DNA of 44,630 bases from Cyanobacteria bacterium HKST-UBA04 (GTDB taxonomy: Bacteria > Cyanobacteriota > Vampirovibrionia > Vampirovibrionales > JAGQHJ01). Of this stretch, positions 1,614-30,073 are shown piece by piece. The notes under the pieces are model-generated. The model searched no databases. It had not been told where the DNA came from and saw only the letters and a list, made by a program, of their open reading frames with translations. The DNA lies in contig JAGQHJ010000013.1 in assembly GCA_020431915.1 (NCBI GenBank), positions 1 to 44,630 of the forward strand. The letters are read 5' to 3'. Each line of letters starts with the position of its first letter. Within the stretch, counting starts at the first letter, position 1. A program made the translations under genes and the position numbers.

Positions 1614-4325
1614 TCAGGTTATCTGCGTCCAATCCGGCGCCCGGCGGTGACGAATAACGGTAAGCTGTTTTTTGGCACGGGTTAGGGCCACGTAAAACAG
1701 TCGCCGGGCTTCTGCCTCCTGCCGGGGCTTGGTCCATATGCCGTTGTATACGGCCGACTTAAGCTTGCCCAGCCCTACTGGGCGAGCCAGCATCAGGCCA
1801 AACCCGCGCTTGCCCCCTCGGCCATCCATATCGCCGAACTGGGGGTCAAACATCAAAACCCGCTCGCCAGCCCGGCTGCTTCGGCTGGTATCATCCACAC
1901 AGGCCACGTATACGTGGTCGTATTCCAGCCCCTTGGCAGCATGGACCGTCATAATCTGAACGGCCGCCTGGCCCGCTGTCGGCAGTGCCACCGGCAGCTC
2001 TTCATCGGGGCTCGTAACATACTTTTCCAGCAGTTCCACCACACGCCGCAAAGGAACCCGATACCAGGCCCCAAGCGCTACCATGTCACCGGCTTGGCCA
2101 GCCTGGCACAAGTCCATTAGGGCCAACGTGGCCGTGGCCACATGCGCCCCCTGCACCGGTTCTTCGACAGACCCAAGCATGCCCCCCAGCAAGCCCAGGC
2201 GCTGTGCCATATGGGCCACCGCCTGGGATAACGGCATGGCCTGCTGGATAACCTGCCAATGAGCAGACACCAGACTTTGAGCCAGGGCCGCGCATGCAGA
2301 CACCACCGGCTTTGGCAAACCCTCTCCCCGAGCCCCGGCTTCGCCGTCCAACTGCAACAACCAGTCAAACAGCGAAACAGACGCCTGGTGCCGCCCCTGG
2401 CAAAGCTGTCGAATCTGGGCCGGAGACAGTCTAGCCGACAGCACCCGAACCAGCGATGCCTCGTGATGCGGATCGACAAGCAGGTGCGCCAGGGCCACCA
2501 GGTCTTTTGCAGTAGGGTGTTCCATCCAGCCCATGGGACGAGCGCAAACAGCCGGGACACCAGCCTGGCTTAACCGTGCCTGCAGCACACGTGCCTTGGT
2601 ACGGGATCGAACCAATACGGCCACCTGATCAAGCGAGGTCACGGCTCCCGCGTCCCGCAGCCGAACAATGTCTTCAACCAGCCAGTCGGCCTCGGCGGCC
2701 TTCAATTCAGCCATCGTTCGGCGTGCCCCGGTGTCATTACCAACCAAACCGTCCGGCACATCTTCCGGCACATCTTCCGGCGCATCAATCGTCAGGCAGC
2801 GAACAGCCTCTTTCGACGCGGGGTGAGAAGCCTGATCAGCGTCAGGCGCAAAAGCTTGTAGTTGATGGGCCGGGTCACGGTTCAACCCGGTGGTGGTATA
2901 CCGGTTAACGGCCGATAAAATCGCCGGATCGCTCCGGTAATTGATCGACAAGGCCACATCAACCACCGACACCCCGCATTGCCGCTCGGCATAACCGGTA
3001 ATTAACGCCAGGTTCTCGGGCTGGGCAAAGCGAAACCCGTAGATAGACTGCTTATCGTCACCCACCACGGTCAGGCCTGGCCGGTCCGGGTTCAGCAGCA
3101 ATTCGAGCAAGCGAAGCTGTGCCCCGTTGGTATCCTGAAACTCGTCGACAATAATGGCCTCGAATTTTTCCTGCAGGTGTTTTCGTACCGCCGGACAGGT
3201 TTCAAGCAGTACAATCACCTCGTTGATCAGATCGTTGAAGTCCATGTAACCACCGGCTTTTAAGTGATCCTGGTACAGGGCGTACAGCACGCCTATTCGC
3301 TCGATCCAAGCCAGTTCAGCCGTTTCGAGGGAGTCGAGATCCTCGAGGTGATCACGGTCCGGCACGGGCATTACCGTTCGGCGGGCCGCACGACCTTCGG
3401 CCTGAACATACAACGGCTGCTTGCCAGCCTTCATCAAAAACGCTACTTCCTCTTCATAGGCCTTGGGCGAGGCATCAACCCCATGGCTGGCCTCGACGGC
3501 CTCAATCGGCCGCCACCCCGAGTCGGACCAATTCGACAACGCCTCGGCCCATACCCGAATGCATTCGGTGATGTGAGCAACCGGTTCGTCCGTCACCGGA
3601 TCATAGCCGGGCATGGTTTTTAACCGCTGTGTCCATGCCCGCGTTTGGGCACGGGTGGTACGAACAAAATCGGCCGGGGTCATACCCGAGGTTTTAATCC
3701 GTTCAATAACGTCCCAACTGGCCGCCAGCAAATCGCCTAACTGATCAATACCGGTGTCCGTGGATGCCAGCAGGGCTTTGAGCGAAAGACACTCGGCCGA
3801 GCACGCAGCCGTCCCACCCTGCCCCAAGCCATATCGAGCCAGCGTGGCAGAGACGTCTTCAAATTCACCTTCGGCAACCCGGTTAACCAGTTTCTCAAAC
3901 ACCGCTTTTTGTTGTGCCGAGTCAATCAGCCGAGGCAAGGACACCACCCCCCGATCAACGCCATAGTGCTTCAACAGCTTTAAGCCCATGTGATGGAAGG
4001 TACCAATCCAGTCCGTCAGCGGCAACGGCCCCAAGCGCTCGGCACCAAGGTGCTGCCATTGCTCCAAAATACCTTGGCGCATTTGCGAAGCGGCCGCCTC
4101 GGTAAAGGTCAGCACCAGCAAGGCATCGGCCGGATTGGGATGCCCCTTGGCAATCAAGTCGTCTACCAGTTTTAAATACCGACGGGTAATGGTCGTGGTT
4201 TTACCCGTACCAGCCCCGGCCAGCACCCGCACCACCGATGTCAGGGGTTGGCCAGCCGCATGGGCCTGCGCTTCATTCAACCCTGCCAAAAACGGGCTGG
4301 CTGTGGCCGTTGGCATGACCGTCAT
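1614..4325 (-). CDS. UvrD/AddA-like superfamily 1 helicase without nuclease domain
   Basis: A 903-residue ATP-dependent SF1A DNA helicase. Walker A is AGAGTGKT at residues 36-43, motif II is IIVDEFQDT near 390, motif III is GDDKQSIYGFR near 420, motif V is TVHAAKGLEYDHVYV near 798 and motif VI is FYVALTRAKK near 877. It is longer than UvrD or PcrA (about 720) but ends directly after motif VI, so it lacks the C-terminal PD-(D/E)XK nuclease domain of true AddA or RecB. Its ATG overlaps the stop of the upstream nuclease gene by four bases (4322-4325), indicating translational coupling and probably a two-subunit complex that resects double-strand breaks for RecA. A short 12-base repeat near 2758-2790 encodes PEDVPEDVPD, probably a surface loop. 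It converges on the flagellin gene, 47 bp away. Confidence 0.9.
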   Translation of the reverse strand: MTVMPTATASPFLAGLNEAQAHAAGQPLTSVVRVLAGAGTGKTTTITRRYLKLVDDLIAKGHPNPADALLVLTFTEAAASQMRQGILEQWQHLGAERLGPLPLTDWIGTFHHMGLKLLKHYGVDRGVVSLPRLIDSAQQKAVFEKLVNRVAEGEFEDVSATLARYGLGQGGTAACSAECLSLKALLASTDTGIDQLGDLLAASWDVIERIKTSGMTPADFVRTTRAQTRAWTQRLKTMPGYDPVTDEPVAHITECIRVWAEALSNWSDSGWRPIEAVEASHGVDASPKAYEEEVAFLMKAGKQPLYVQAEGRAARRTVMPVPDRDHLEDLDSLETAELAWIERIGVLYALYQDHLKAGGYMDFNDLINEVIVLLETCPAVRKHLQEKFEAIIVDEFQDTNGAQLRLLELLLNPDRPGLTVVGDDKQSIYGFRFAQPENLALITGYAERQCGVSVVDVALSINYRSDPAILSAVNRYTTTGLNRDPAHQLQAFAPDADQASHPASKEAVRCLTIDAPEDVPEDVPDGLVGNDTGARRTMAELKAAEADWLVEDIVRLRDAGAVTSLDQVAVLVRSRTKARVLQARLSQAGVPAVCARPMGWMEHPTAKDLVALAHLLVDPHHEASLVRVLSARLSPAQIRQLCQGRHQASVSLFDWLLQLDGEAGARGEGLPKPVVSACAALAQSLVSAHWQVIQQAMPLSQAVAHMAQRLGLLGGMLGSVEEPVQGAHVATATLALMDLCQAGQAGDMVALGAWYRVPLRRVVELLEKYVTSPDEELPVALPTAGQAAVQIMTVHAAKGLEYDHVYVACVDDTSRSSRAGERVLMFDPQFGDMDGRGGKRGFGLMLARPVGLGKLKSAVYNGIWTKPRQEAEARRLFYVALTRAKKQLTVIRHRRAPDWTQIT

Positions 4326-7300
4326 GACAGGTCCTCCGACACCGCCGCCGTCGCCGCCATGGCATCGGTGGATTGCACATCACAGATCGCCTTGAAATCG
4401 CACCGGGCACAGGCCATCGGGTTGGTAGAAAATTCGCAAGCCTGCCGAACAGGAGCAACCACCAGCCGCTGCAGGTTGGCTGCAAAATCCGGCAGGCGGT
4501 TCTGGAGGGTTTCGGCATCCACCATCACCGACAGCGATCCGAAAGCCGGATCGTCCCCGTCATAACGCGGGCGACAGATTTGCAACCCGACCGACTCAAT
4601 GGCTGTGGCGGCGCCGTGCAACTGTACCCACTGCTGTGCCCCATAAAAATAAAGAGGAACCTGGCTCATCCATTCGTGCTTAAACACCTCATGGTGCGGG
4701 CGTCCCTGCGCCTCCTCCAAATGGGGATCGAAGGCCCTGGTTAATTTCGAAACACGGGTTTGATCCTGCTTGTCGCTAAACTTGTGGCGACCATAAACCT
4801 TGTAGTCCACCACACGCCACTGGCCTTCGGCATTGGCCATCAGCGCATCGACCCGCCCTCCAAAAACGGCATGGTCAACCTGGGGCAGACGAAACGCACT
4901 CAATTCCACCTCGGTTTCAATCCGGCTAACCGGCTCGTCAAAGAACCCGGCGGTTTGCATGTCGCCGATGGCCCCCTGCAGGTAGGTCCTAAACCGCTCC
5001 AGGGTAAGGGGTGTCAACCCATGCAACTGGTGGCGAAGCCGACGGGTTTTTTCATCCAGCCCCCCTTCCTCCAACCCGGCAGGCAGACCTGCCAACATGG
5101 CACACAACTCGGCTTCGAGCCCCACCAGGCCATCGAGCCATGTTCGCAACCATCCCGCCCAAACGCCGGCATCGGGGAAGGCATGGCCCTGCTCCAGATG
5201 GAACCGGGTCTGGCATCCCCAATATTGCAACGCCCAGTGCAGCCAAAGCCCCTTAAGCACCGACTCGTCGGCAGGGGTTTTCAGGCCCAGCACATGCCGG
5301 TAATAATACTGCCGGGGGCAGCGGGTATAGGTATCAATGGCCGAAGGACTGAGCATCAAGGCCTGGGCCGGATCAAAAACCGGGCTATCGGCCGACTGGA
5401 CGGGCAGCGCTGCCCAAGGATGCGGTGGCCCGGAGGCGCCCTCCGGCGTTACCAACACATTGGCGGAAGGCCCCATGTCGGTGGCCGGTAAGCGATTACA
5501 CGGAATCATCGCCGCCAGTGCCACCGGGGCAATACAAACCGAACGGCCGGCCAGGGTGGCCGGTGCCAGCAGAACCGTTTCAAACCGGCTCAGGCATGCC
5601 CGATCAAAACGTTGCTGCAGGGAATGCGCCTGCCACCGGGTCCAATCCACCGGCAATACCCTGCCCTGCCCGGCAGTTACCCATGCCTGATCAAGCCAAC
5701 GGGCCAACGACGGTACATCCGGCACACCCCAGTGGGCTTGAGTCATCCACGGCACCACCACGGCATCGGGCAGCACCCCTTCCAAAGCCTCGGGCAACAA
5801 GACCGTTACGTTGAGCGAACCCGCACGATAACCTCCAGCCATGCCGGACCAAACCAACCGCCGGGCCAGGACATCGGCAGAGGCCGTTTCAGGCTGTTGC
5901 CCCTCACCCATCCGGCGGGTCACCTGCGTCCACAAGTCCGGCCAAACACCCAGCAAACGCGACAACGACATCGCCGGAACCGACGCATGCATCATCCAGG
6001 TATCCAGGCGCTGTAACTGCGCGTGCAACTGCGTCAGGGCCGTGGCCACGACCGAGCCCTCCTGACCCGGCACGACCGGCTGCCAGCATGTTTGAAGGGT
6101 CTGGTCCAGCGCCGTAACCAAAGCCGGCATGTCGGACAAGGGTAGGCGTGTCCATTGCCACAGCCAGTACAGCGGATCGCGCCGCCAGCTTAGCAACTGG
6201 GCTTCTATCGGAGGCTGCCCATACGCCATGGCCAACAGATGCTCTATTTCAACCCCGGCCTCCATGCAGGCCACCACATGGTGACGCGCGTCACGACATG
6301 CCAGAACCGGGGAAGGGGAAAACAGCCCGTCAAGCGCATCGAGCAAATCCAGCCAGCCAAGCACCGCTTCGGCCAGCTCCTGGTTTCGCTGCTGGTTATA
6401 CTGATACTCTGGCCAATCCGGCCGTTGCGGGGACTGCCCCTTTTGCTTGAAGCGTGCCAACAACGCCAACAACGCCAGGGTCTGCCGAAGCCATTCGCCA
6501 AGGCTGTCCACCAGGGACTCGTCATGCGCCTCCTCCTCGGCCGTCTGGCAGAACGGTTCGAGCATGGACACCACAACCGACAGCTTGGCCTTGTCCGGCA
6601 CCACCACAGCCACTTCAATTACCTCACCCCCCTCGGTGGAGCCGGAAGCAAACGGCACCACCTCCGGCCGGGACCACCGGTCCAGCAACGCCATGACCGC
6701 CTCCATCATGGCCACCTCGTCGGGTACCGATTGAAGGGTAACCAAGCCTGGCGCCTCTTCCCCAGAAGCCGCTGGCTCGTGCAGGCGAGGCAGTGCCTGG
6801 CAGGGTATTTGCCACAAGGCCGACAGCTTCTCAAACAAAACCCGTTCGTACGGGGTTTGGACCGTTGCCGAGTCCAGTTCGTCCAACAGCAGGGCAGCAG
6901 GCCGGGTATCGAGGGGAAAAGCAGCCTCAATCGACTCGGTCGGCACGCCATTTAGCCCGTCAAGCACCTGTTGCCGAATGGCTGGCCAGGTGGTCAGCCC
7001 CAAGGAGGCCAGATGCTGATGGCACTGCCGCCATGCCGCCTGCACCGGCAAGCAAATCGCCGGAGCCTCGGTCTTGTGCCATGGCCAGTCCGGCCTCAAG
7101 GTGGTTAGCAACCCCACGGCATGACGACAATTTCGGGCCAGGGCCGGGGTCAACGTACCGCCATCACCGGTATCAGCCGTCGGTCCCGCCTGGCCGGTCA
7201 TAACGGACAAAGCCGAAGTAACGGCCTGGCTTAGGGGATGATCGCCATCAAGCTTCCGGGACAAGCTTTCTTCCAGCAGACAGTCGACCAGCACTTTATC

Positions 7301-7567
7301 GGCCCGTTGCAGTACCGGCTGTCCCTGGCTGCGGCATACGCTTTCGTACAGGGTTAAAACCAGCTGGCGCAGGGTCATTACCCGTACCCGCTCGTAGCCA
7401 GGCACGGCACCCAAACGCTGAACCAGCTGGGCCGCATGGCGGTTATGCCGGGCCAATAGCCACACGGTCCGCCCACGAGATGCCTCATCGGCAAGCACCG
7501 CATCGAGCCGGTTAAACCAGTGGGCCAACCAGGGCGACGGGCCAGTATGCGCTGAAGAAGTCGTCAT
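4322..7567 (-). CDS. AddB-like protein with C-terminal PD-(D/E)XK nuclease and Fe-S cysteines
   Basis: A 1081-residue protein whose C-terminal third is a RecB-family nuclease. PSAIDTYTRCPRQYYYR lies near residue 749. The catalytic core is GRVDAL near 904 followed by VVDYK near 919, that is D and (D/E)xK. A terminal cysteine set CARCDFKAIC lies near 1054-1063. One Cys at CPRQ plus C-x2-C-x5-C is exactly the iron-sulfur pattern known from AddB. The N-terminal region resembles AddB's degenerate helicase half and shows no Walker A motif. It is the first gene of the operon and shares an ATGA overlap with the helicase gene downstream. The pair most likely acts as an end-resection helicase-nuclease in which only this subunit cuts. 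A PD-(D/E)XK protein with another substrate is the main alternative. Confidence 0.85.
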   Translation of the reverse strand: MTTSSAHTGPSPWLAHWFNRLDAVLADEASRGRTVWLLARHNRHAAQLVQRLGAVPGYERVRVMTLRQLVLTLYESVCRSQGQPVLQRADKVLVDCLLEESLSRKLDGDHPLSQAVTSALSVMTGQAGPTADTGDGGTLTPALARNCRHAVGLLTTLRPDWPWHKTEAPAICLPVQAAWRQCHQHLASLGLTTWPAIRQQVLDGLNGVPTESIEAAFPLDTRPAALLLDELDSATVQTPYERVLFEKLSALWQIPCQALPRLHEPAASGEEAPGLVTLQSVPDEVAMMEAVMALLDRWSRPEVVPFASGSTEGGEVIEVAVVVPDKAKLSVVVSMLEPFCQTAEEEAHDESLVDSLGEWLRQTLALLALLARFKQKGQSPQRPDWPEYQYNQQRNQELAEAVLGWLDLLDALDGLFSPSPVLACRDARHHVVACMEAGVEIEHLLAMAYGQPPIEAQLLSWRRDPLYWLWQWTRLPLSDMPALVTALDQTLQTCWQPVVPGQEGSVVATALTQLHAQLQRLDTWMMHASVPAMSLSRLLGVWPDLWTQVTRRMGEGQQPETASADVLARRLVWSGMAGGYRAGSLNVTVLLPEALEGVLPDAVVVPWMTQAHWGVPDVPSLARWLDQAWVTAGQGRVLPVDWTRWQAHSLQQRFDRACLSRFETVLLAPATLAGRSVCIAPVALAAMIPCNRLPATDMGPSANVLVTPEGASGPPHPWAALPVQSADSPVFDPAQALMLSPSAIDTYTRCPRQYYYRHVLGLKTPADESVLKGLWLHWALQYWGCQTRFHLEQGHAFPDAGVWAGWLRTWLDGLVGLEAELCAMLAGLPAGLEEGGLDEKTRRLRHQLHGLTPLTLERFRTYLQGAIGDMQTAGFFDEPVSRIETEVELSAFRLPQVDHAVFGGRVDALMANAEGQWRVVDYKVYGRHKFSDKQDQTRVSKLTRAFDPHLEEAQGRPHHEVFKHEWMSQVPLYFYGAQQWVQLHGAATAIESVGLQICRPRYDGDDPAFGSLSVMVDAETLQNRLPDFAANLQRLVVAPVRQACEFSTNPMACARCDFKAICDVQSTDAMAATAAVSEDLS

Positions 7568-7589
7568 GAACGGGTAAGCCTACATCCCT

Positions 7590-7617
7590 TGCCTTGTGCC
7601 TTGCCTTACCTTGCCAA
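7590..7617. repeat. CCTTG pentamer cluster upstream of the addB-like gene
   Basis: The sequence contains CCTTG, CCTTG, TG, CCTTG, CCTTA, CCTTG. On the minus strand this gives four GCAAGG/GTAAGG-like units just upstream of the ATG at 7567. These look like repeated Shine-Dalgarno-like purine runs or a small tandem repeat in the leader of the recombination operon. Confidence 0.5.
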
Positions 7618-7743
7618 GACCCGTTAACCAAGTAGTTCCCTTACTGGGAGACGCTACTGATCAACGCGCTACGGACCCCCATGGTGGCACAGAGTCGGGC
7701 CACTGAAAAGCCCTGTGGTGGGGATAGATACCAGGCATGAGAC

Positions 7744-7783
7744 AAAAACCGCCGGGCCCATTGGAGCGACCCGGCGGTTTTTT
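7744..7783 (-). terminator. Bidirectional rho-independent terminator
   Basis: A perfect 9-bp stem pairs ACCGCCGGG (7748-7756) with CCCGGCGGT (7770-7778) around a 13-base loop. It is flanked by A5 on the left and T6 on the right, so it has a U-tract on either strand. It lies just past the stop of the EF-hand gene (7812, minus strand), whose transcript it would end, separating that gene from the addB-like operon. Confidence 0.9.
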
Positions 7784-7811
7784 ACAATTGATTCGCGATT
7801 CCCTGGGTGGC

Positions 7812-9041
7812 TTAACGGCCAAACCAGTTAAACGGATTGAAATACGTTGGCATCCGGTTAAAGAAGCTGCCGAAGGAGGGCATGCCGCCACCAAAGAAGG
7901 GGAACCCAAAGGGTGACTGCTGTTGCGGATACTGCGTCGGCGGATACTGGGTAGGGAATTGCGGCGGATACTGCGTCGGTGGATACTGGGTCGGCGGATA
8001 CTGCTGCTGATTGAATACCAGCGACACAATATTGGCCAACTGACCGTAGAGATCCGAGATACGGTTGGTCAAGGTTGTAATCAAGTCACGCTGTTCGTCA
8101 ACCTGAGACTGCAGGGCCTCAACCGTGGGAGCCGGCGTGGGGGTCGGGGTTCCCGGCGTCGGTGTTGGTGTGGGCGTAGGGGTCGGGGTTGCCGCATTAA
8201 ACACCTCGGCATACTTGTCGGGATCATCCTCGTTGTCGGCCAACAGTTCCTTGAGCTGGCTGATTTGATCCAGGGTAACAGCCTTGCCCTTAACATCGGG
8301 GTTATCGACAATCTGGCCAAATTCGCCGCTTTTGAGCTTACCGTCGTCATCGTCGAGCATGGCCACGTTCATCAACTCGTTCATCGACACGCCGGCTGCA
8401 CCGTCAATGCCTGTAACCAGGGTAAAGTCGTCGCCGCCAAAGGCTGCCCGAACCAGAATGTTGCTGAAGCCGGAGGGATCGCCTTCCAGTTTCATTTCCT
8501 CGGCAATGTCGAGCAACTGCGATTGGGTCAGTTGCGTATCGAGGTCAACACCGGCATACCCTGCACCCAGGGCAGTTACGGCATCGTTAAACCGATCCTT
8601 GAAGACCTCGAAATCGGTCTCCTGGTAGTTGGTGCCAAACAGGTCTTCGGCAATACCGGTCGTGTAGGTTTTCAGGTCGGCAACCGCACTCAGGCCGGCC
8701 AAACGGAAGTCGAAGTTGGAAATATCGCCAGCCTGGCCATCCTTGTTAGACAACGCCATAATCACTTCATCGGCAGTTACCTTGCCGTCGCCGTCGTCGT
8801 CCAAATCGCCATGGTTCTTGTGGACAAAAGCCAGCAGTTCCACGTCGGAACCCAAATCATCGGCGTCGGGGTTGGCTTTTTTATAACGGGCCACAAAGGT
8901 GTCAACCATACGGCCCAAATCTTCTTTGGACAGGGCAGGATCAACCGGGTTACCGTTTGCATCTTGCGACGGGCCATTAAAATCGGTAGCCCACTGGTTA
9001 AACTTATCGGCAAAATCGCTGTTACTGATCCGAAAACTCAT
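7812..9041 (-). CDS. EF-hand protein with Pro-Thr linker, coiled coil and QYPPTQ-repeat tail
   Basis: A 409-residue protein of unrecognised family. Residues 81-92 form a canonical EF-hand loop (D, D, D, G at 1, 3, 5, 6 and E at 12), predicting calcium binding. A second acidic loop at 229-240 lacks Asp at position 1. An acidic N-terminal domain (1-283) is followed by a Pro-Thr linker (285-306), a short predicted coiled coil (about 307-342), QYPPTQ repeats (346-371) and a Phe/Gly/Pro-rich end. No signal peptide or membrane segment is visible, so any export would need another route. The start is supported by AAGGA eight bases before ATG. It is monocistronic, with a strong terminator behind it. 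The architecture suggests a calcium-responsive adhesin or structural protein that oligomerises through the coiled coil; this is inference. Confidence 0.85.
   Translation of the reverse strand: MSFRISNSDFADKFNQWATDFNGPSQDANGNPVDPALSKEDLGRMVDTFVARYKKANPDADDLGSDVELLAFVHKNHGDLDDDGDGKVTADEVIMALSNKDGQAGDISNFDFRLAGLSAVADLKTYTTGIAEDLFGTNYQETDFEVFKDRFNDAVTALGAGYAGVDLDTQLTQSQLLDIAEEMKLEGDPSGFSNILVRAAFGGDDFTLVTGIDGAAGVSMNELMNVAMLDDDDGKLKSGEFGQIVDNPDVKGKAVTLDQISQLKELLADNEDDPDKYAEVFNAATPTPTPTPTPTPGTPTPTPAPTVEALQSQVDEQRDLITTLTNRISDLYGQLANIVSLVFNQQQYPPTQYPPTQYPPQFPTQYPPTQYPQQQSPFGFPFFGGGMPSFGSFFNRMPTYFNPFNWFGR
7926..8010. repeat. 15-bp-type tandem repeats encoding QYPPTQ
   Basis: The block GGATACTG(C/G)GT followed by CGGC or CGGT recurs about five times with slight variation inside the EF-hand gene. 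It encodes tyrosine-proline-proline-threonine-glutamine repeats on the minus strand. Copy number could vary between strains by slippage without breaking the frame. Confidence 0.8.
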
Positions 9042-22354: not shown

Positions 22355-23941
22355 TCAAGGCAAAAGGCTGTTGTCGTAAGGTAAAACGGCTGCCACCGCC
22401 GGTGGGCTCTGTTTAATAATTTTGCCTGTGCCGTCTATGTATGCCGAGGGCCCACTGTTTACAGCCAAAATTAAGGGCAAACCGGCCTCTGTCGCCCTGA
22501 TGCGATTAATACCCAAAAACTGCCGACCCAGCATGCGGTTATGGTGAAACCAGCCCAGGTTGCTGACCGTCACCAGTACATCCACCCCATTATGGCGATA
22601 AATGTGGCTCAGCGATGGATAAATGGCCTCAAAGCAGATAAACGCCCCTATACGGTGCCCCCGATAACTGATACCCGGCTGATTCAGCGCGCCAGCATTG
22701 AACATTGGCTGATAAGGCAGGCCAAACAACTGGTTAACCAACCAGCTGAACCACTCGGCCGGCACAAACGGCACGGTTTCACCGAAAGCCACCAAATGCC
22801 GCTTGTGGATAGCCAGGGTTTGCTGGTCAGCCTGGATTAAAATGGCGCTGTTAAACGGCCGATTCCAGTCATCCAAGGTCAATGCACCGCTAAACAAGGC
22901 CACATGGGCCGACTGTGACACCCATGACGCCAGCCACTGCTTGGCCTGGTATTTGGTGGCGGGGGTCAAAATGCCTTCGGGCCACACAAACAGGCTTTGA
23001 CGCCCTTCATTCAGCAGTGGCCGGGCAGCCACCTCGTACCGGGCCCATTTTTGGCGGGCACTGGCCAACCCCAGCCGCCCCGTTCGGATAACCTCGTCGT
23101 AATGGTCGTCGTCCATGGTCAAATCGCCCTGAAACACCACCGGGTTTAACGATGCCAACACCACCCGACCGGAATGCCTGGGATGAGCGATGACAGGAGC
23201 CCACCCCACCATTATGGCCAGGCACACGGCCGTAATAGCAGGAAAACCCATTTGCCATAACGGCACCCGGTTTCCTCCTGAGTGCTTCTTAGCAAGCGAC
23301 TCGACGAGCAGGTAGACGGCCACGTTAAAACCAACCATCACAGCCTCCAGCCCCAGCATGCCCAAGGCATAAACGCTGTGGCGAACCCCGTCAACATCGG
23401 CCTGGCTATGGGAAAGCCAGCCCCATGGAACCCCGATGGCGCTTTGGTTGAGTCCCCACAGCAACCCTACCCATAAAACCGGCAGTATCGGCAGCCATGC
23501 CCACCGACAAGTAGGGCGCCGAACCAGATACGCCAGCCACCAGATAACGCTAATAATCAGGCCCTGAATCAAGGCCAGCAGCAGCCACGTGACAACGGCA
23601 ATCAAGAAACCGGCCCAATTGGGAAGCCCCAGCCATCCCAGCGGGTACAGGTCCATAAACCAACTGAAATACACCATATGGTAAAGCGTTCCGAAGGCCA
23701 AACCTTGAAGCCATGCCGCCATAGGTCGTGAACAACGGTTCAAGGCCCACAACAAGGGAACCAAAGCCACCCATGCCAGCCACCAGAACGGGTTGGTATT
23801 GCCCCATACCCCTGGAATACTAAGGCAAAGCAGCAGACACCCCAGCCCCAACATGCGCAGCCCAGGAACAGCCAGTAGCTGCCTGAGGGAAGGCGCCTGC
23901 CAATTGCCGTTTTGGGGAAATACCTGTTTAATGGAAAGCAT
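22355..23941 (-). CDS. lnt: Apolipoprotein N-acyltransferase
   Basis: About 528 residues from ATG at 23941. The N-terminal half has six or more hydrophobic membrane segments, the C-terminal half a periplasmic nitrilase-fold domain. The triad is visible as Glu in LFVWPEG, Lys in HKRHLVAFGE and Cys in FICFEAIYP. Lnt transfers the third acyl chain to the N-terminal Cys of lipoproteins in the inner membrane, which implies an outer membrane. The start is uncertain. ATG at 23941 overlaps the ruvC start region head to head; in-frame starts extend to 24100 inside ruvC; ATG at 23854 would begin right at the first membrane helix and leave a normal spacer. No clear ribosome binding site decides this. 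Confidence 0.93.
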   Translation of the reverse strand: MLSIKQVFPQNGNWQAPSLRQLLAVPGLRMLGLGCLLLCLSIPGVWGNTNPFWWLAWVALVPLLWALNRCSRPMAAWLQGLAFGTLYHMVYFSWFMDLYPLGWLGLPNWAGFLIAVVTWLLLALIQGLIISVIWWLAYLVRRPTCRWAWLPILPVLWVGLLWGLNQSAIGVPWGWLSHSQADVDGVRHSVYALGMLGLEAVMVGFNVAVYLLVESLAKKHSGGNRVPLWQMGFPAITAVCLAIMVGWAPVIAHPRHSGRVVLASLNPVVFQGDLTMDDDHYDEVIRTGRLGLASARQKWARYEVAARPLLNEGRQSLFVWPEGILTPATKYQAKQWLASWVSQSAHVALFSGALTLDDWNRPFNSAILIQADQQTLAIHKRHLVAFGETVPFVPAEWFSWLVNQLFGLPYQPMFNAGALNQPGISYRGHRIGAFICFEAIYPSLSHIYRHNGVDVLVTVSNLGWFHHNRMLGRQFLGINRIRATEAGLPLILAVNSGPSAYIDGTGKIIKQSPPAVAAVLPYDNSLLP

Positions 23942-24464
23942 GGATAGAGAACCGATTCGAATTCTGGGGATTGACCCGGGGCTGGAACGCGTCGGGTTTG
24001 GCGTGGTTAGCCTGCTGCCCTGCGGACAACTGGTCGCCGAGGATTGGGGCGTCATCAAGACGTCGAAGAAAGACGCGCGCCCCAAACGCCTGGTTGACAT
24101 TTATGATGCGATAAACAGTCTGCTGAGCCAAACCCAACCCCAGGCCGTGGCCATGGAGCAGCTGTTTTTCTTCCGTAACATCACCACCATCGTGCCGGTG
24201 TGCGAGGCCAGGGGGGCCATCCAAATGGCCTGCTACCAGGCCGGTTTTCTACCTGTGGAGTATACCCCGCCGCAAATCAAGTTGCATATTACCGGCAATG
24301 GCCGGGCCGACAAAACCGAGATTCAGGATATGGTAATGGTGCTGCTTGGCCTCGACGGCCGCCCCCAGCCCGATGATGCGGCAGACGGCCTGGCCATTGC
24401 CCTGACCCATGCCTACCACGTTACGACCACCACCGAAGCGGCCACCAGCCTGTTACACGCCTAG
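23931..24464 (+). CDS. ruvC: Crossover junction endodeoxyribonuclease RuvC
   Basis: A 177-residue Holliday-junction resolvase acting with RuvAB. The first catalytic Asp is in ILGIDPGLERVGFGVV, Glu in AMEQLFF, and the C-terminal acidic pair in DDAADGLAIALTHA. The Lys-rich KTSKKDARPKRL loop contacts DNA. ATG at 23931 is preferred, with GGGGA 12 bases upstream; ATG at 23940 (MDREPIR) is the alternative. In-frame sequence upstream to 23793 is not conserved and lies over lnt. The gene is divergent from lnt, with overlapping start regions. Confidence 0.96.
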   Translation: MESMDREPIRILGIDPGLERVGFGVVSLLPCGQLVAEDWGVIKTSKKDARPKRLVDIYDAINSLLSQTQPQAVAMEQLFFFRNITTIVPVCEARGAIQMACYQAGFLPVEYTPPQIKLHITGNGRADKTEIQDMVMVLLGLDGRPQPDDAADGLAIALTHAYHVTTTTEAATSLLHA

Positions 24465-24491: not shown

Positions 24492-24520
24492 TTGAAAGCC
24501 ACCGGCCCCTGCTATACAAT
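24492..24520 (+). promoter_or_regulatory. Sigma-70-type promoter of bioU-bioD
   Basis: TTGAAA (24492-24497) and TACAAT (24515-24520) are separated by exactly 17 bases, with four and five of six consensus matches. It sits 40 bp before the bioU start and points at the biotin gene pair. No BirA-like palindrome was noticed. Confidence 0.7.
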
Positions 24521-24559
24521 ACGACTTTGAATCGCGATTAAGAAGCTTGATGGAGAACC

Positions 24560-25594
24560 GTGGCGATGAAGGCAGCAACCGAATTACGACTGGCCATTCT
24601 TGGGGCCGGCGGCCTGGGCAAGGGCATGATGCAACGGGTCGAGCAGACTCCCGGTTTCAAGACCGTGGCACTGGTCGACAGCACCGGCTACGTGTGGGAC
24701 GAAGACGGTGTGGATTGCGCCGCCCTGCTGCCACTCAAGTCCTTGAACAGCTACCCCAATGCTATTGGCAGCCACCAGGCCATTCTCGACCTGTTTACCG
24801 TTCATGCCGACGACATTGACGTGGTGTTTGTGGCCCTGCCCAACCTGCCCGTCGACTTTATCCCGTCCATCGCCGAGCAATTGGCCGAAAAAACCACCTT
24901 TAAAGGCGTCATCGTCGACGCGTTGAAACGGAGCCGGGCCGTGGAACTGATGCTGGCGCTCCACGACGTGCTGGCACAAAACCATATTCTGTACATTACC
25001 GGTGCCGGAGCCACGCCGGGCTTCTTAAGCACGGTGGCCGCCGTGGCCGCCCAAAGCTTTGTATCCGTTGACCATATCGACATCCGCTTCGGCGTTGGGA
25101 TTGCCAATTGGGAAGCGTACCGTGCCACGATCCGCGAAGACTTCATCCACCTGCCCGGCTTTGATGCCGATCGGGTGGCAGCCATGAGCGATGCCGACAT
25201 CGAGGCCGAGCTGAACCAGCGCAACGGCCTGATTGAACTGGTGAACATGGAACACGCCGACGACATCATGCTGGAGCGGGCCGGCATTTGCCGCCGCGAC
25301 CAGGTAACGGTTGGCGGGCTGGTGGACACCCGCAACGCGGCCAAGCCCATCCAGACCACCGTCACCATTACGGGCAAAACCGTGGCCGGCCAGACGGCCA
25401 GCCACGTGTTAACGCTCGACAACGCCACAACCATGGTCGACAACGTCTGCGGCCCGGCCCTGGGCTTCCTGCGACAAGGGGTCGAATTGCACCATACCCA
25501 AGCCCTGAGCGGGGTGCTGACCTCCGTTGACCTGATGCCCAAAGGCCACGTCACCACCAGTACCGCTCCAAACCGCCAAACCGTCTCTGCCTAG
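24560..25594 (+). CDS. bioU: BioU-like (S)-8-amino-7-oxononanoate aminating enzyme, suicide type
   Basis: A 344-residue Rossmann-fold protein resembling saccharopine dehydrogenase (LAILGAGGLGKGMMQRV at 11-27). In cyanobacteria this family is BioU, which makes 7,8-diaminopelargonate using the side-chain amine of its own Lys124 and replaces BioA. Here Lys123 in VIVDALKRSRAVEL occupies the matching position. The next gene is bioD, the enzyme that takes the BioU product. GTG at 24560 or ATG at 24566 may be the start, both served by GGAG at 24552-24555. A consensus promoter lies 40 bp upstream. The Rossmann motif, lysine position and bioD linkage are seen; suicide chemistry is known from the cyanobacterial enzyme and inferred here. 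Confidence 0.85.
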   Translation: MAMKAATELRLAILGAGGLGKGMMQRVEQTPGFKTVALVDSTGYVWDEDGVDCAALLPLKSLNSYPNAIGSHQAILDLFTVHADDIDVVFVALPNLPVDFIPSIAEQLAEKTTFKGVIVDALKRSRAVELMLALHDVLAQNHILYITGAGATPGFLSTVAAVAAQSFVSVDHIDIRFGVGIANWEAYRATIREDFIHLPGFDADRVAAMSDADIEAELNQRNGLIELVNMEHADDIMLERAGICRRDQVTVGGLVDTRNAAKPIQTTVTITGKTVAGQTASHVLTLDNATTMVDNVCGPALGFLRQGVELHHTQALSGVLTSVDLMPKGHVTTSTAPNRQTVSA

Positions 25595-25629
25595 GTACAC
25601 AAGCGTAGACACACGTAACGGACAATCCG

Positions 25630-26358
25630 ATGAAACGCTTTGTTACCGGCACCGGTACGGAAATCGGCAAAACCTACGTCACGGCGACCCTGGCTTCGGC
25701 CCTGGCCCGCTGTGGTTTTCGGGTGGCTTATTACAAACCTGTCCAGACTGGCACGGATACTGACGGTCCAAATGCCGACGCCGCCACGGTAGCGGCCATG
25801 GCCGAAGCCGCCGGGGTCGGTGGGTCGGTTACCGTGCAAACCGGCCTGAATTTTGGCCCCCCCGTGGCCCCGATGGTGGCCGACCCGGAAGGTCGACACA
25901 TCTCGCTGGACAAAGCCCGGTACGACATCGCAGCGCTGGAGGCCAGCCACGATGTGGTGTTGGTGGAAGGAGCCGGTGGCCTGATGGTCCCGATGACCCC
26001 CACCCAAACCACCATGGACTGGCTGGGAGCACTGGACATGCCCGTGCTGGTCGTTGCCCTGAGCGGCCTGGGAACGCTGAACCATACCTTGCTGACCCTG
26101 CATCAGCTCGACCAGCAGCGCATCCCCATTGACGGCGTGGTGTTCAATCGGTATCCGGCCAACCCTCATCAGGCCCCCTTGGCCGTACAAACTCTGCTGG
26201 AAACCATTACGCCGTTCCTTCCCCCCTCCGCCGACCCCACCCGGCTTTGGACATGCGCCGAGGCCACACCCAACGCATCCGACGCATCAGGAAGACTAAG
26301 CCCGGCCTGTCTCCAGCACCTCATTTCAGCCTGCCGGGCCTCCACCACGGCCCCATAA
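25630..26358 (+). CDS. bioD: Dethiobiotin synthetase
   Basis: A 242-residue ATP-dependent carboxylase-type P-loop enzyme. It closes the ureido ring of biotin by adding CO2 to 7,8-diaminopelargonate. The P-loop is GTGTEIGKT near residue 7, followed by KPVQTG, which holds the catalytic lysine, and VEGAGGLMVP near residue 116. It lies 35 bp after bioU with no promoter between, so the two form one transcript. The C-terminal 20 residues are poorly conserved and Ala/Ser-rich. No bioA, bioB or bioF is in the window. Confidence 0.95.
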   Translation: MKRFVTGTGTEIGKTYVTATLASALARCGFRVAYYKPVQTGTDTDGPNADAATVAAMAEAAGVGGSVTVQTGLNFGPPVAPMVADPEGRHISLDKARYDIAALEASHDVVLVEGAGGLMVPMTPTQTTMDWLGALDMPVLVVALSGLGTLNHTLLTLHQLDQQRIPIDGVVFNRYPANPHQAPLAVQTLLETITPFLPPSADPTRLWTCAEATPNASDASGRLSPACLQHLISACRASTTAP

Positions 26359-26524: not shown

Positions 26525-27019
26525 ATGTCGATTTCCAAGGTTCAAATTGGCGCCCCTATCCCAACCTCATCGTTGGCAAACTCTCGGTCTGAGATCCGAC
26601 AGGGTGAACGGCAACGGATCATCGAAGCAAGCACGCAGAATGATCCGCAATTGAGCATGGCTATCCACACCGTGGGGGTGGATGCCACCATCGACTACAT
26701 CCGCGAAGGTCAAAGTAACATTTTCAGCGATACCGTCCTTAAGGATTTCAGTGGCCTGTCGGCCTCAGAAGCCCAGGATCGCTTTAAGCAATATGCTGCT
26801 GCCGGGGCGTCAACCGCCGCGCTGGTAGAAATGAGCGGCGTCATTGCCAACAAGGAAGCCCGCAGCCGTAAACGGGCCATCGAGCAGTCTCAGATTGCCC
26901 GGAACATCAACGCCAAAAGCGACGATGCCAAGGCCATCGAAAAAAGCGAAGCCAAAATCAAAGAAATCCTCAAGCAAATGAGCGAAGAGGGTGGCGCCAG
27001 CGATAACTCAGAAAGCTAG
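26525..27019 (+). CDS. Hypothetical 164-aa helical protein
   Basis: Starts MSISKVQIGAPIPTSSLANS. No family is recognised. The first 30 residues are Ser-rich and probably flexible. The middle (35-115) is Ala-rich and helical (SEAQDRFKQYAAAGASTAALVEM). The end is a highly charged helix with Lys/Glu heptads (KAIEKSEAKIKEILKQM) and an acidic tail. There is no signal peptide or membrane segment. It has its own AT-rich leader with a -35-like TTGACA, so it is probably expressed on its own. Its TAG stop shares the palindrome CTAG with the gcvPB stop on the other strand. An N-terminal disordered stretch plus C-terminal coiled helix recalls secreted flagellar or type III-associated proteins, but nothing here proves that. 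Confidence 0.75.
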   Translation: MSISKVQIGAPIPTSSLANSRSEIRQGERQRIIEASTQNDPQLSMAIHTVGVDATIDYIREGQSNIFSDTVLKDFSGLSASEAQDRFKQYAAAGASTAALVEMSGVIANKEARSRKRAIEQSQIARNINAKSDDAKAIEKSEAKIKEILKQMSEEGGASDNSES

Positions 27020-28566
27020 TTACCAGCCCCTTGGGCGTGATTAGCAAAATAGTTTAAGTCCAGCTGCTTAACGGCGGCCACTTCATCCACACGCTTAACC
27101 GGCGTGGTATGGGGCGCATCAAGCACCAGATCCGGCTGGGTTTTGGCTTCGTCGGCAATTTGCACCATGGCCTGCACAAACCGGTCGAGGGTTTCCTTGC
27201 TCTCGGTTTCGGTGGGCTCAATCATCATGATTTCGGGGATGATCAGCGGAAAGTAGACCGTGGGCGGATGAAAACCATAATCCATCAGCCGCTTGGCCAG
27301 GGCCATGGTATTGATGTCCTTGTTGTCGGCCCGCTGGTGCCGGCTGGTCAGGATAAACTCGTGCATGCACGTCTGGGTGAAGGGCTCGTGATAGGTTTCC
27401 TTCAGGCGGGCCTTCAGGTAGTTGGCATTCAGCACGGCCTTTTCGCTGACTTCGCGCAAACCGTCGCCGCCATAGCACACCAGGTAAGCCAGGGCGCGCA
27501 ACAGCACCTCGGTATTGCCATAAAACAGCTTCAACTGTCCCAGTGCGTCGGGCCGATCGTGGTTAAGCCAATACGTGCCATCGGGCCGTTGTTCAACGGT
27601 CGGCTTGGGCAGAAAGGGCTCAAGCTTCTCGTTGGCCGCCACGGGGCCACTGCCGGGGCCGCCACCGCCGTGGGGCGTGGCAAAGGTTTTGTGGGTATTG
27701 AGGTGCATCACGTCAAAGCCCATGTGGGCCACCTTGGCCCGGCCCATAATGGCGTTGAGGTTGGCCCCGTCGTAGTAGCAGAGGCCACCGGCCTCGTGCA
27801 CCATCTGGGTAATGGACAAAATGTCCTCTTCGAACAGGCCGACCGTGTTGGGGTTGGTCAGCATAATGGCAGCCGTCCGGTCACTCAAGGCCGCCCGAAG
27901 GGCATTGAGATCCACCAGGCCTCTTTCGTTGCTCTTGATTTCCACCACGTCAAACCCGCACATGGCCGCACTGGCCGGGTTGGTTCCGTGGGCCGAATCG
28001 GGCACCAATACCTCGGTACGAGCCGTGTTGCCCTGCCGCTGGTGATAGGCACGAATCATCATCATGCCGGCCAACTCGCCATGGGCGCCGGCTGCCGGTT
28101 GCAGCGACACGGCACAAAAGCCGGTCAAATCCTTCAAATACGCCTGCAGCGTGTACAGCGCCCCCAATGTCCCCTGGGCCAGGGCTTGCGGCACTTCCGG
28201 GTGAACCAGGTTAAAGGCCGGCTGGTTACCCACCCAGTCGCAGATCTTGGGGTTGTACTTCATCGAGCACGATCCCAGGGGATAGAAGTTGTTGTCAATG
28301 GAATGGTTCAACTGCGACAGGTTGACGTAGTGGCGAATCATTTCCAGTTGGCTCACTTCAGGCAGGCGGGCCGGCCGTTTTCGCTGCCAGCCTTCCGGCA
28401 AAATCGACTGCATCAGAGCCGTTTCATCGGCTCCTTCATCGAGCGGGGGCAGGGTCACCCCTTGGCGACCGGTACGGCTCAGTTCAAACAGGGTGGCCAC
28501 GGACCGGGTATTGCCATGGGCATCACGAACCGTTGGCAGAGCGGGCTTCGTCGACGACTCAGACAT
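27016..28566 (-). CDS. gcvPB: Glycine dehydrogenase (decarboxylating) subunit 2
   Basis: A 516-residue PLP half of the two-subunit P-protein. It decarboxylates glycine and passes the aminomethyl group to the lipoyl arm of GcvH. The PLP lysine is in HLNTHKTFATPHGGGGPG near residue 292, and NPNTVGLFE and YYDGANLNAI precede it as usual. ATG at 28566 is preferred, with AGGGG about nine bases upstream; an in-frame TTG at 28575 is possible. It overlaps the end of gcvPA by 8 bp, so the two subunits are translationally coupled and produced in equal amounts. It ends at CTAG, tail to tail with the 164-aa gene. Confidence 0.96.
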   Translation of the reverse strand: MSESSTKPALPTVRDAHGNTRSVATLFELSRTGRQGVTLPPLDEGADETALMQSILPEGWQRKRPARLPEVSQLEMIRHYVNLSQLNHSIDNNFYPLGSCSMKYNPKICDWVGNQPAFNLVHPEVPQALAQGTLGALYTLQAYLKDLTGFCAVSLQPAAGAHGELAGMMMIRAYHQRQGNTARTEVLVPDSAHGTNPASAAMCGFDVVEIKSNERGLVDLNALRAALSDRTAAIMLTNPNTVGLFEEDILSITQMVHEAGGLCYYDGANLNAIMGRAKVAHMGFDVMHLNTHKTFATPHGGGGPGSGPVAANEKLEPFLPKPTVEQRPDGTYWLNHDRPDALGQLKLFYGNTEVLLRALAYLVCYGGDGLREVSEKAVLNANYLKARLKETYHEPFTQTCMHEFILTSRHQRADNKDINTMALAKRLMDYGFHPPTVYFPLIIPEIMMIEPTETESKETLDRFVQAMVQIADEAKTQPDLVLDAPHTTPVKRVDEVAAVKQLDLNYFANHAQGAGN

Positions 28567-30073
28567 GTTGGACAACCCCCTTGTGGTTGGGTACGTGCGG
28601 CGACGGCACGGATCGCGACATCACGCTCTTGGGTAGGCCCGGGGCGGCAGGTGCAGGCATGCGGGGTTCCGGGCCCGGTTGTGCCCCCAGCTGGGTCAGA
28701 GCGTGATGCAGAGCATACACGTAGCGATCCAGCGACTCGGGCGTGTTCATCTCCGTAACGGCAACCACCAGGGCATGGGGCTGGTTGGGAAAATACGATT
28801 CATAGCGAGACAACGGAATACCCGGCACCAGGCCATGGCTGGCCACCATCGACTCGACGACCGCCTGGGCCGCAACCGGCAGGATCAAGGTAAACTCGTT
28901 GAGGTACGGGGCCGCCGACATTAACGACACCCCGGTCATACGACAGAGTTGATCGGCCAAACGATGGGCCCGCTGGGCCGAGAGCAGGGCCAGGTGTTTG
29001 AGGCCCGAAGGGCCAACCAGGCTGAGGTAGGCCGACGCCTTAAGGATGTTGAGGGACTGGTTGGTACAGATATTGCTCGTCGCCTTGGCCCGGCGAATAT
29101 GCTGCTCGCGGGTTTGCATCGTCAGGGTGTAGGCCCGCTTGCCGGTCCGGTCCTTGCTGCATCCCACCAGGCGTCCCGGCAACTGCCGAACGTGGGCCAT
29201 GGACGTGGACACGAACCCGCCATAGGGCCCCCCAAAGTTGACGTAGTTGCCAAACTGCTGCAGCTCGCCGCAAACGATATCGGCCCCATCGGGGTTGGCC
29301 TCGCTTTTGCCGGGCGCCGCCATGACCCCCAACGCAACGGGATCAACGGCAGCCACTTTCAGTGCCCCATGGGCCTTGCAAAACGCCGTGACCATGGCCT
29401 GATCTTCAAGAAACCCCAGATAGTTGGGCAGTTGTACCAGCACGGCCGCTACCTGGTTCGGGGGCACCCCAACGGCACAGCACTGGGCTTCGAGGTCCGC
29501 CGTCAAATCGACAGGCACCACGTTAATATGGTCGAGCACGCCGGTGTAGGTATCCAGTACGGCCCGGTAATGGGGGTTAACCGTTTTAGACACCAGCAGC
29601 GTATGCCGTTTCTTGGCAATGCGCACCGCCATGACCGCCGACTCGCTGAATGCCGAGGCGCCGTCGTAAACCGAGGCATTGGTTACGTCCAGCCCAACCA
29701 GCTCGCTGACCATGGTCTGGAACTCGTAAATCATCTGCAGTGTGCCCTGGCTTACTTCGGGCTGGTAGGGGGTATAGGCCGTATAAAATTCGGAGCGGCT
29801 GGCTATATGGTTAACTGCCGGCGGCACAAAACGGTTGTAGGCCCCGCCGCCCACAAAGCAGTCATAATGGTGGGCCAGGTTGGCTTCGGTAAACTGCTTA
29901 AAAAACTGTTGCAGGCCCAGCTCGTCCAGACCCGAGGCCGGCATGACATCAAATTGGCACAGCCCCTGCAGTTGTGGCGGAATAGCGCTAAACAGCGCAT
30001 CAATACTGTCCACGCCAATGGTGTCGAGCATCGCCTCGACTTCATCCGGCGTATGAGGAAGAAACCCTGTCAA
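28559..30073 (-). CDS. gcvPA: Glycine dehydrogenase (decarboxylating) subunit 1
   Basis: A 504-residue non-PLP-binding partner of GcvPB in the glycine cleavage P-protein heterotetramer. The N-terminus MTGFLPHTPDEVEAMLDTIG, the segment FVGGGAYNRFVPPAVNHIASRSEFYTAYTPYQPEVSQGTLQ and PYGGFVSTSMAHVRQLPGRLVG are typical. The start is TTG at 30073, supported by AAAGGA seven bases upstream; the nearby ATG is out of frame and stops after three codons. A 244-bp gap precedes it after gcvH, so it may have its own promoter, though none is clear. The last 50 residues are a Pro-rich extension. Confidence 0.95.
   Translation of the reverse strand: MTGFLPHTPDEVEAMLDTIGVDSIDALFSAIPPQLQGLCQFDVMPASGLDELGLQQFFKQFTEANLAHHYDCFVGGGAYNRFVPPAVNHIASRSEFYTAYTPYQPEVSQGTLQMIYEFQTMVSELVGLDVTNASVYDGASAFSESAVMAVRIAKKRHTLLVSKTVNPHYRAVLDTYTGVLDHINVVPVDLTADLEAQCCAVGVPPNQVAAVLVQLPNYLGFLEDQAMVTAFCKAHGALKVAAVDPVALGVMAAPGKSEANPDGADIVCGELQQFGNYVNFGGPYGGFVSTSMAHVRQLPGRLVGCSKDRTGKRAYTLTMQTREQHIRRAKATSNICTNQSLNILKASAYLSLVGPSGLKHLALLSAQRAHRLADQLCRMTGVSLMSAAPYLNEFTLILPVAAQAVVESMVASHGLVPGIPLSRYESYFPNQPHALVVAVTEMNTPESLDRYVYALHHALTQLGAQPGPEPRMPAPAAPGLPKSVMSRSVPSPHVPNHKGVVQHV

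Follow-up and report, generated by a model that had tools for sequence, protein, structure and literature searches.

Does the gene directly upstream of bioD in Cyanobacteria bacterium HKST-UBA04 encode BioU, the suicide enzyme that donates the amine of one of its own lysines to make DAPA, and does it do so in place of the usual aminotransferase BioA? We analysed a window of 44,630 nucleotides (the whole of the stretch taken from contig JAGQHJ010000013.1), in which positions 24560–25594 on the forward strand encode BioU; the protein adds a member to a family already described and does not represent a new mechanism. The gene has a GTG start and a product of 344 amino acids, with an alternative in-frame ATG 6 nt downstream at 24566, and from its sequence the product is predicted to be an (S)-8-amino-7-oxononanoate synthase, that is, a DAPA-forming suicide enzyme. 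We put the probability at about 0.95 that the gene is bioU and that its product replaces BioA, with Lys123 as the amine donor and each protein working once. The identity and the replacement of BioA rest on homology, predicted fold, invariant residues, linkage to bioD, the lack of a detectable BioA, and the mutual exclusion of the two genes.

The window protein matches the BioU model NF047886 over almost its full length (351.9 bits, E = 2.8e-105, profile positions 2–320 of 323, 317 residues). This score is under the NCBI curated cut-off of 600 bits, which is an annotation threshold and not a defining property of BioU; scores in the whole order are below 600 bits, as are some from the wider phylum sample. 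The protein has 51% sequence identity to Slr0355 of Synechocystis (50% over 319 columns in a larger alignment), and a phmmer comparison with the Slr0355 structures gave E = 4.5e-95. An AlphaFold2 model of the protein (pLDDT 91.8, pTM 0.89), used as a Foldseek query, had BioU structures as its five best matches, with TM scores of 0.89–0.95 and 49% identity–for example, 6itd at E = 2.1e-44 and TM 0.89/0.94. The next folds were meso-diaminopimelate and D-amino-acid dehydrogenases, at TM about 0.5 and 12–19% identity. The preliminary description had proposed BioU for a sequence that, in its view, looked like saccharopine dehydrogenase. The identification agrees with our results, but the likeness does not: searches of Pfam and NCBIfam up to E = 0.1 gave no match to the saccharopine dehydrogenase family, so we rejected that identity, and the sole Pfam match over its curated cut-off was a weak one to ELFV_dehydrog. 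It had also expected automatic annotation to hide the gene under a saccharopine dehydrogenase label. Automatic pipelines would probably miss it, but because the 600-bit cut-off of the BioU model exceeds its score of 352.

The residue predicted to be sacrificed, Lys123 in the motif VDALKRS (codon 24926–24928, forward strand), aligns with Lys124 of Slr0355, as the preliminary description had anticipated; the number counts from the GTG start and becomes 121 if the ATG is used. The sequences of PDB entries 6itd and 6k37, titled K124A, have alanine at this position, and the BioU of Synechocystis salina has lysine at 124. Similarly, His232 (codon 25253–25255, forward strand) corresponds to His233 of Slr0355, which is alanine in the sequence of 6k38, titled H233A. 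The titles of 6k36 and 6k38 describe the protein as conjugated with DAPA. Both residues are invariant, lysine and histidine each being present in 127 of 127 homologs, a set gathered by similarity and so unlikely to include paralogs that lack the lysine.

The linkage to bioD, also part of that description, is close and recurrent. The bioD gene for dethiobiotin synthase (25630–26358, forward strand, 242 amino acids, with TIGR00347 and PF13500 matches) begins after a gap of only 35 nt on the same strand, and its product passes the TIGR00347 cut-off (145.7 versus 83.3 bits). On the other side lies ruvC (23793–24464, forward strand), which is over the cut-off of NF000711 at 184.4 bits and whose true start is probably downstream of 23793. 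The order ruvC-bioU-bioD is conserved in most relatives whose loci are readable on both sides, often with gcvPB next; in family f44, where readable, bioU lies apart from both ruvC and bioD. The sigma-70-like promoter that had been proposed before bioU is a candidate by consensus match only: the pair TTGAAA-17 nt-TACAAT is present at 24492–24520 on the forward strand, with the 17-nt spacing and 10 of 12 consensus matches. It is the best of 3 such sites in 2.3 kb, where shuffled sequences lead us to expect 0.9, and a comparison by eye found no visible conservation upstream of bioU in relatives. We found no match to the BirA operator pattern within the window.

Other features of these contigs are recorded here as observations. 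Between bioD and gcvPB, after an AT-rich stretch, is a 164-amino-acid ORF (window 26525–27019) with no Pfam match. After it, at 27016–30073, glycine dehydrogenase is encoded as two separate genes, gcvPB and gcvPA, each of which passes its cut-off. At 4322–9041 of the window, ORFs of 1081 and 409 amino acids lie beside a UvrD/RecB-like helicase and have no NCBIfam match at E = 1e-30. A Limnofasciculus contig (L053) has two identical bioU copies, at 1–1700 and 2934–4630, within an exactly repeated stretch of roughly 1.7 kb; misassembly or recent duplication could explain it.

The host is a non-photosynthetic relative of cyanobacteria in the Vampirovibrionales, the group of the algae-killing Vampirovibrio. 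The best relatives of the window protein are in Vampirovibrionales genomes (54–69% identity), and in the tree it falls inside a fully supported Vampirovibrionales clade (100/100), beside the proteins of three loci (L007, L003 and L004), two of them from genomes named as Vampirovibrionales. The genome assembly is 2.7 Mb in 180 contigs and 87.65% complete. Elsewhere in it we found bioB, over cut-off, on contig C115 and birA on contig C93. Of two BioF-like proteins, that encoded on C113 passes the cut-offs of the BioF/Kbl subfamily and glycine C-acetyltransferase models. The other, on C88, is closest to bioF (362 bits, where the cut-off is 426) and is our candidate for this gene, whose presence the preliminary description had left to be checked.

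A true bioA, which that description suspected was missing, was not found: no BioA over cut-off was detected in this 87.65% complete genome, although a bioA could possibly have been missed in a single genome of that completeness. bioA had only two matches in the genome, both class-III aminotransferases. One passes the TIGR01885 cut-off as an ornithine aminotransferase and the other is PRK05769-like; their family scores led us to reject both as BioA. Thus bioB, bioD and a bioF candidate are present with no BioA over cut-off, a bioF-bioD-bioB pathway with BioU in the place of BioA. No BioC over cut-off was found across the order; the route to the pimelate part in cyanobacteria has been described as unknown (PMC12903740).

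Within this bacterial class, BioU and BioA never occur together. In the order, 15 of 18 genomes have BioU without a BioA over cut-off, two have BioA without BioU, and one has neither. At the level of the class, the count is limited to genomes that the searches for the two genes both named: 16 have BioU and not BioA, 21 have BioA and not BioU, and none has both. One genome has neither. The chance of so perfect a separation under random labels is 7.8e-11, a figure that overstates the evidence because the genomes are related. Similarly, other loci led to 21 BioU genomes, most of them from other groups, and none had a BioA over cut-off. The genome with neither, G398, gave no match to bioU, bioD or ruvC; since even ruvC is missing, its assembly probably lacks the locus. 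A published survey reported that nearly all cyanobacteria carry either BioU or BioA (PMC12903740).

The two genomes of the order that have BioA and no BioU, G343 and G396, have BioA matches of 451 and 520 bits, and no bioU was found at their ruvC loci in the stretch fetched. Their bioA is part of a cluster, bioB / bioF-(hydrolase)-bioC-like-bioD-bioA. This biotin cluster, at L181:6301–12188 in G396 and L182:6578–12438 in G343, ends in bioD-bioA and includes a BioH-like hydrolase and a BioC-like protein.

BioU homologs that retain the lysine also occur beyond the phylum, in Sumerlaeota, Armatimonadota, Poribacteria and archaea of the Methanoperedens type. Three archaeal loci (Methanoperedens / Methanosarcinales) have the operon bioB-bioW-bioU-bioF-bioD with little or no intergenic space (L039:4184–8819, L075:2166–6819 and L082:4117–8763). 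All three BioW proteins pass their cut-offs, as do BioB and BioF of L039. The records from archaea and other phyla are at least partly metagenome assemblies, in which a single contig can be misassigned, but the three archaeal loci agree with each other and form one clade. The branching of the non-cyanobacterial BioU groups relative to cyanobacteria lacks resolution in the tree.

From the work on Slr0355, the conserved residues and the fold, we infer the chemistry, step order and single turnover of the window protein. In Slr0355, a conjugate with Lys124 is formed and carboxylated, and NAD(P)+-dependent release follows with loss of the lysine amine (PMC12915131, PMC7133116). By analogy, 8-amino-7-oxononanoate would condense with the side-chain amine of the protein's own Lys123, using NAD(P)H, and the conjugate would then take up CO2. 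An NAD(P)+-dependent oxidation would release the carbamate of diaminononanoate and leave Lys123 without its amine, so that each BioU protein could be used once. BioD, encoded 35 nt downstream, would close the ring to give dethiobiotin, and BioB, encoded elsewhere in the genome, would add the sulfur.

We weighed two other explanations. The protein could be a dehydrogenase of the BioU fold recruited elsewhere, for example as a lysine, saccharopine or diaminopimelate dehydrogenase, with biotin obtained through another aminotransferase or by import. The weak dehydrogenase-family matches, the remote structural similarity to meso-DAP and L-lysine dehydrogenases, and the ornithine and PRK05769-like aminotransferases of this genome could all be read that way. 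We consider this extremely improbable: the rival folds reach TM of about 0.5 and 12–19% identity, against 0.89–0.95 and 49% for BioU, and a recruited dehydrogenase would leave the invariant catalytic residues, the adjoining bioD and the strict alternation with BioA to be accounted for.

Only marginally less improbable is that these lineages make DAPA in a BioU-like way but with repeated turnover, through an external amino donor or restoration of the lysine. Conservation of Lys123 is by itself no proof that it is consumed once. However, no homolog lacks Lys123 or His232, which fits a lysine that is itself the donor, and the conserved neighbours of bioU in relatives are ruvC, bioD and gcvPB, among which we noticed no candidate repair gene. 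We favour a single-use BioU that replaces BioA.

Of more interest than family membership are the archaeal operons and the wider alternation with BioA. It is quite likely that BioU is not peculiar to photosynthetic cyanobacteria and serves generally in place of BioA, whose presence in the same genome it excludes. Its users would be Vampirovibrio-type bacteria, several uncultured phyla, and methane-oxidising archaea, in whose complete bioB-bioW-bioU-bioF-bioD operon it lies. As far as open papers show, the strict BioU/BioA alternation in the class and the archaeal operons are new, though Sakaki et al. 2020 may already mention archaeal or Melainabacterial BioU. With an enzyme that works once, each vitamin molecule costs a whole protein. 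That such an enzyme is conserved in non-photosynthetic bacteria and anaerobic archaea, with the reusable BioA excluded, suggests that it has no tie to photosynthesis and has been evolutionarily stable for a long time. There is also a gap in annotation: with BioU under the model cut-off, these groups may be recorded as having incomplete biotin pathways.

The closest known system is the BioU of Synechocystis sp. PCC 6803 (Slr0355; PDB 6ir4, 6itd, 6k36, 6k37 and 6k38; Sakaki et al. 2020), which the window protein resembles in its predicted fold and full-length alignment, in the predicted sacrificial lysine and the His233 equivalent, and in the probable replacement of BioA. It differs in being 51% identical, in its non-photosynthetic Vampirovibrionales-type host, in its ruvC-bioU-bioD block, and in scoring below the NCBI cut-off. 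BioA (TIGR00508), the usual DAPA aminotransferase, has the pathway step in common with BioU, but it is an unrelated PLP enzyme and is not found alongside BioU in this class. In contrast, the 'BioU' of Ehrlichia shares only the name: it is a pimeloyl-ACP methyl ester esterase acting at an earlier step of the pathway, and a source of confusion in annotation (PMC7750005).
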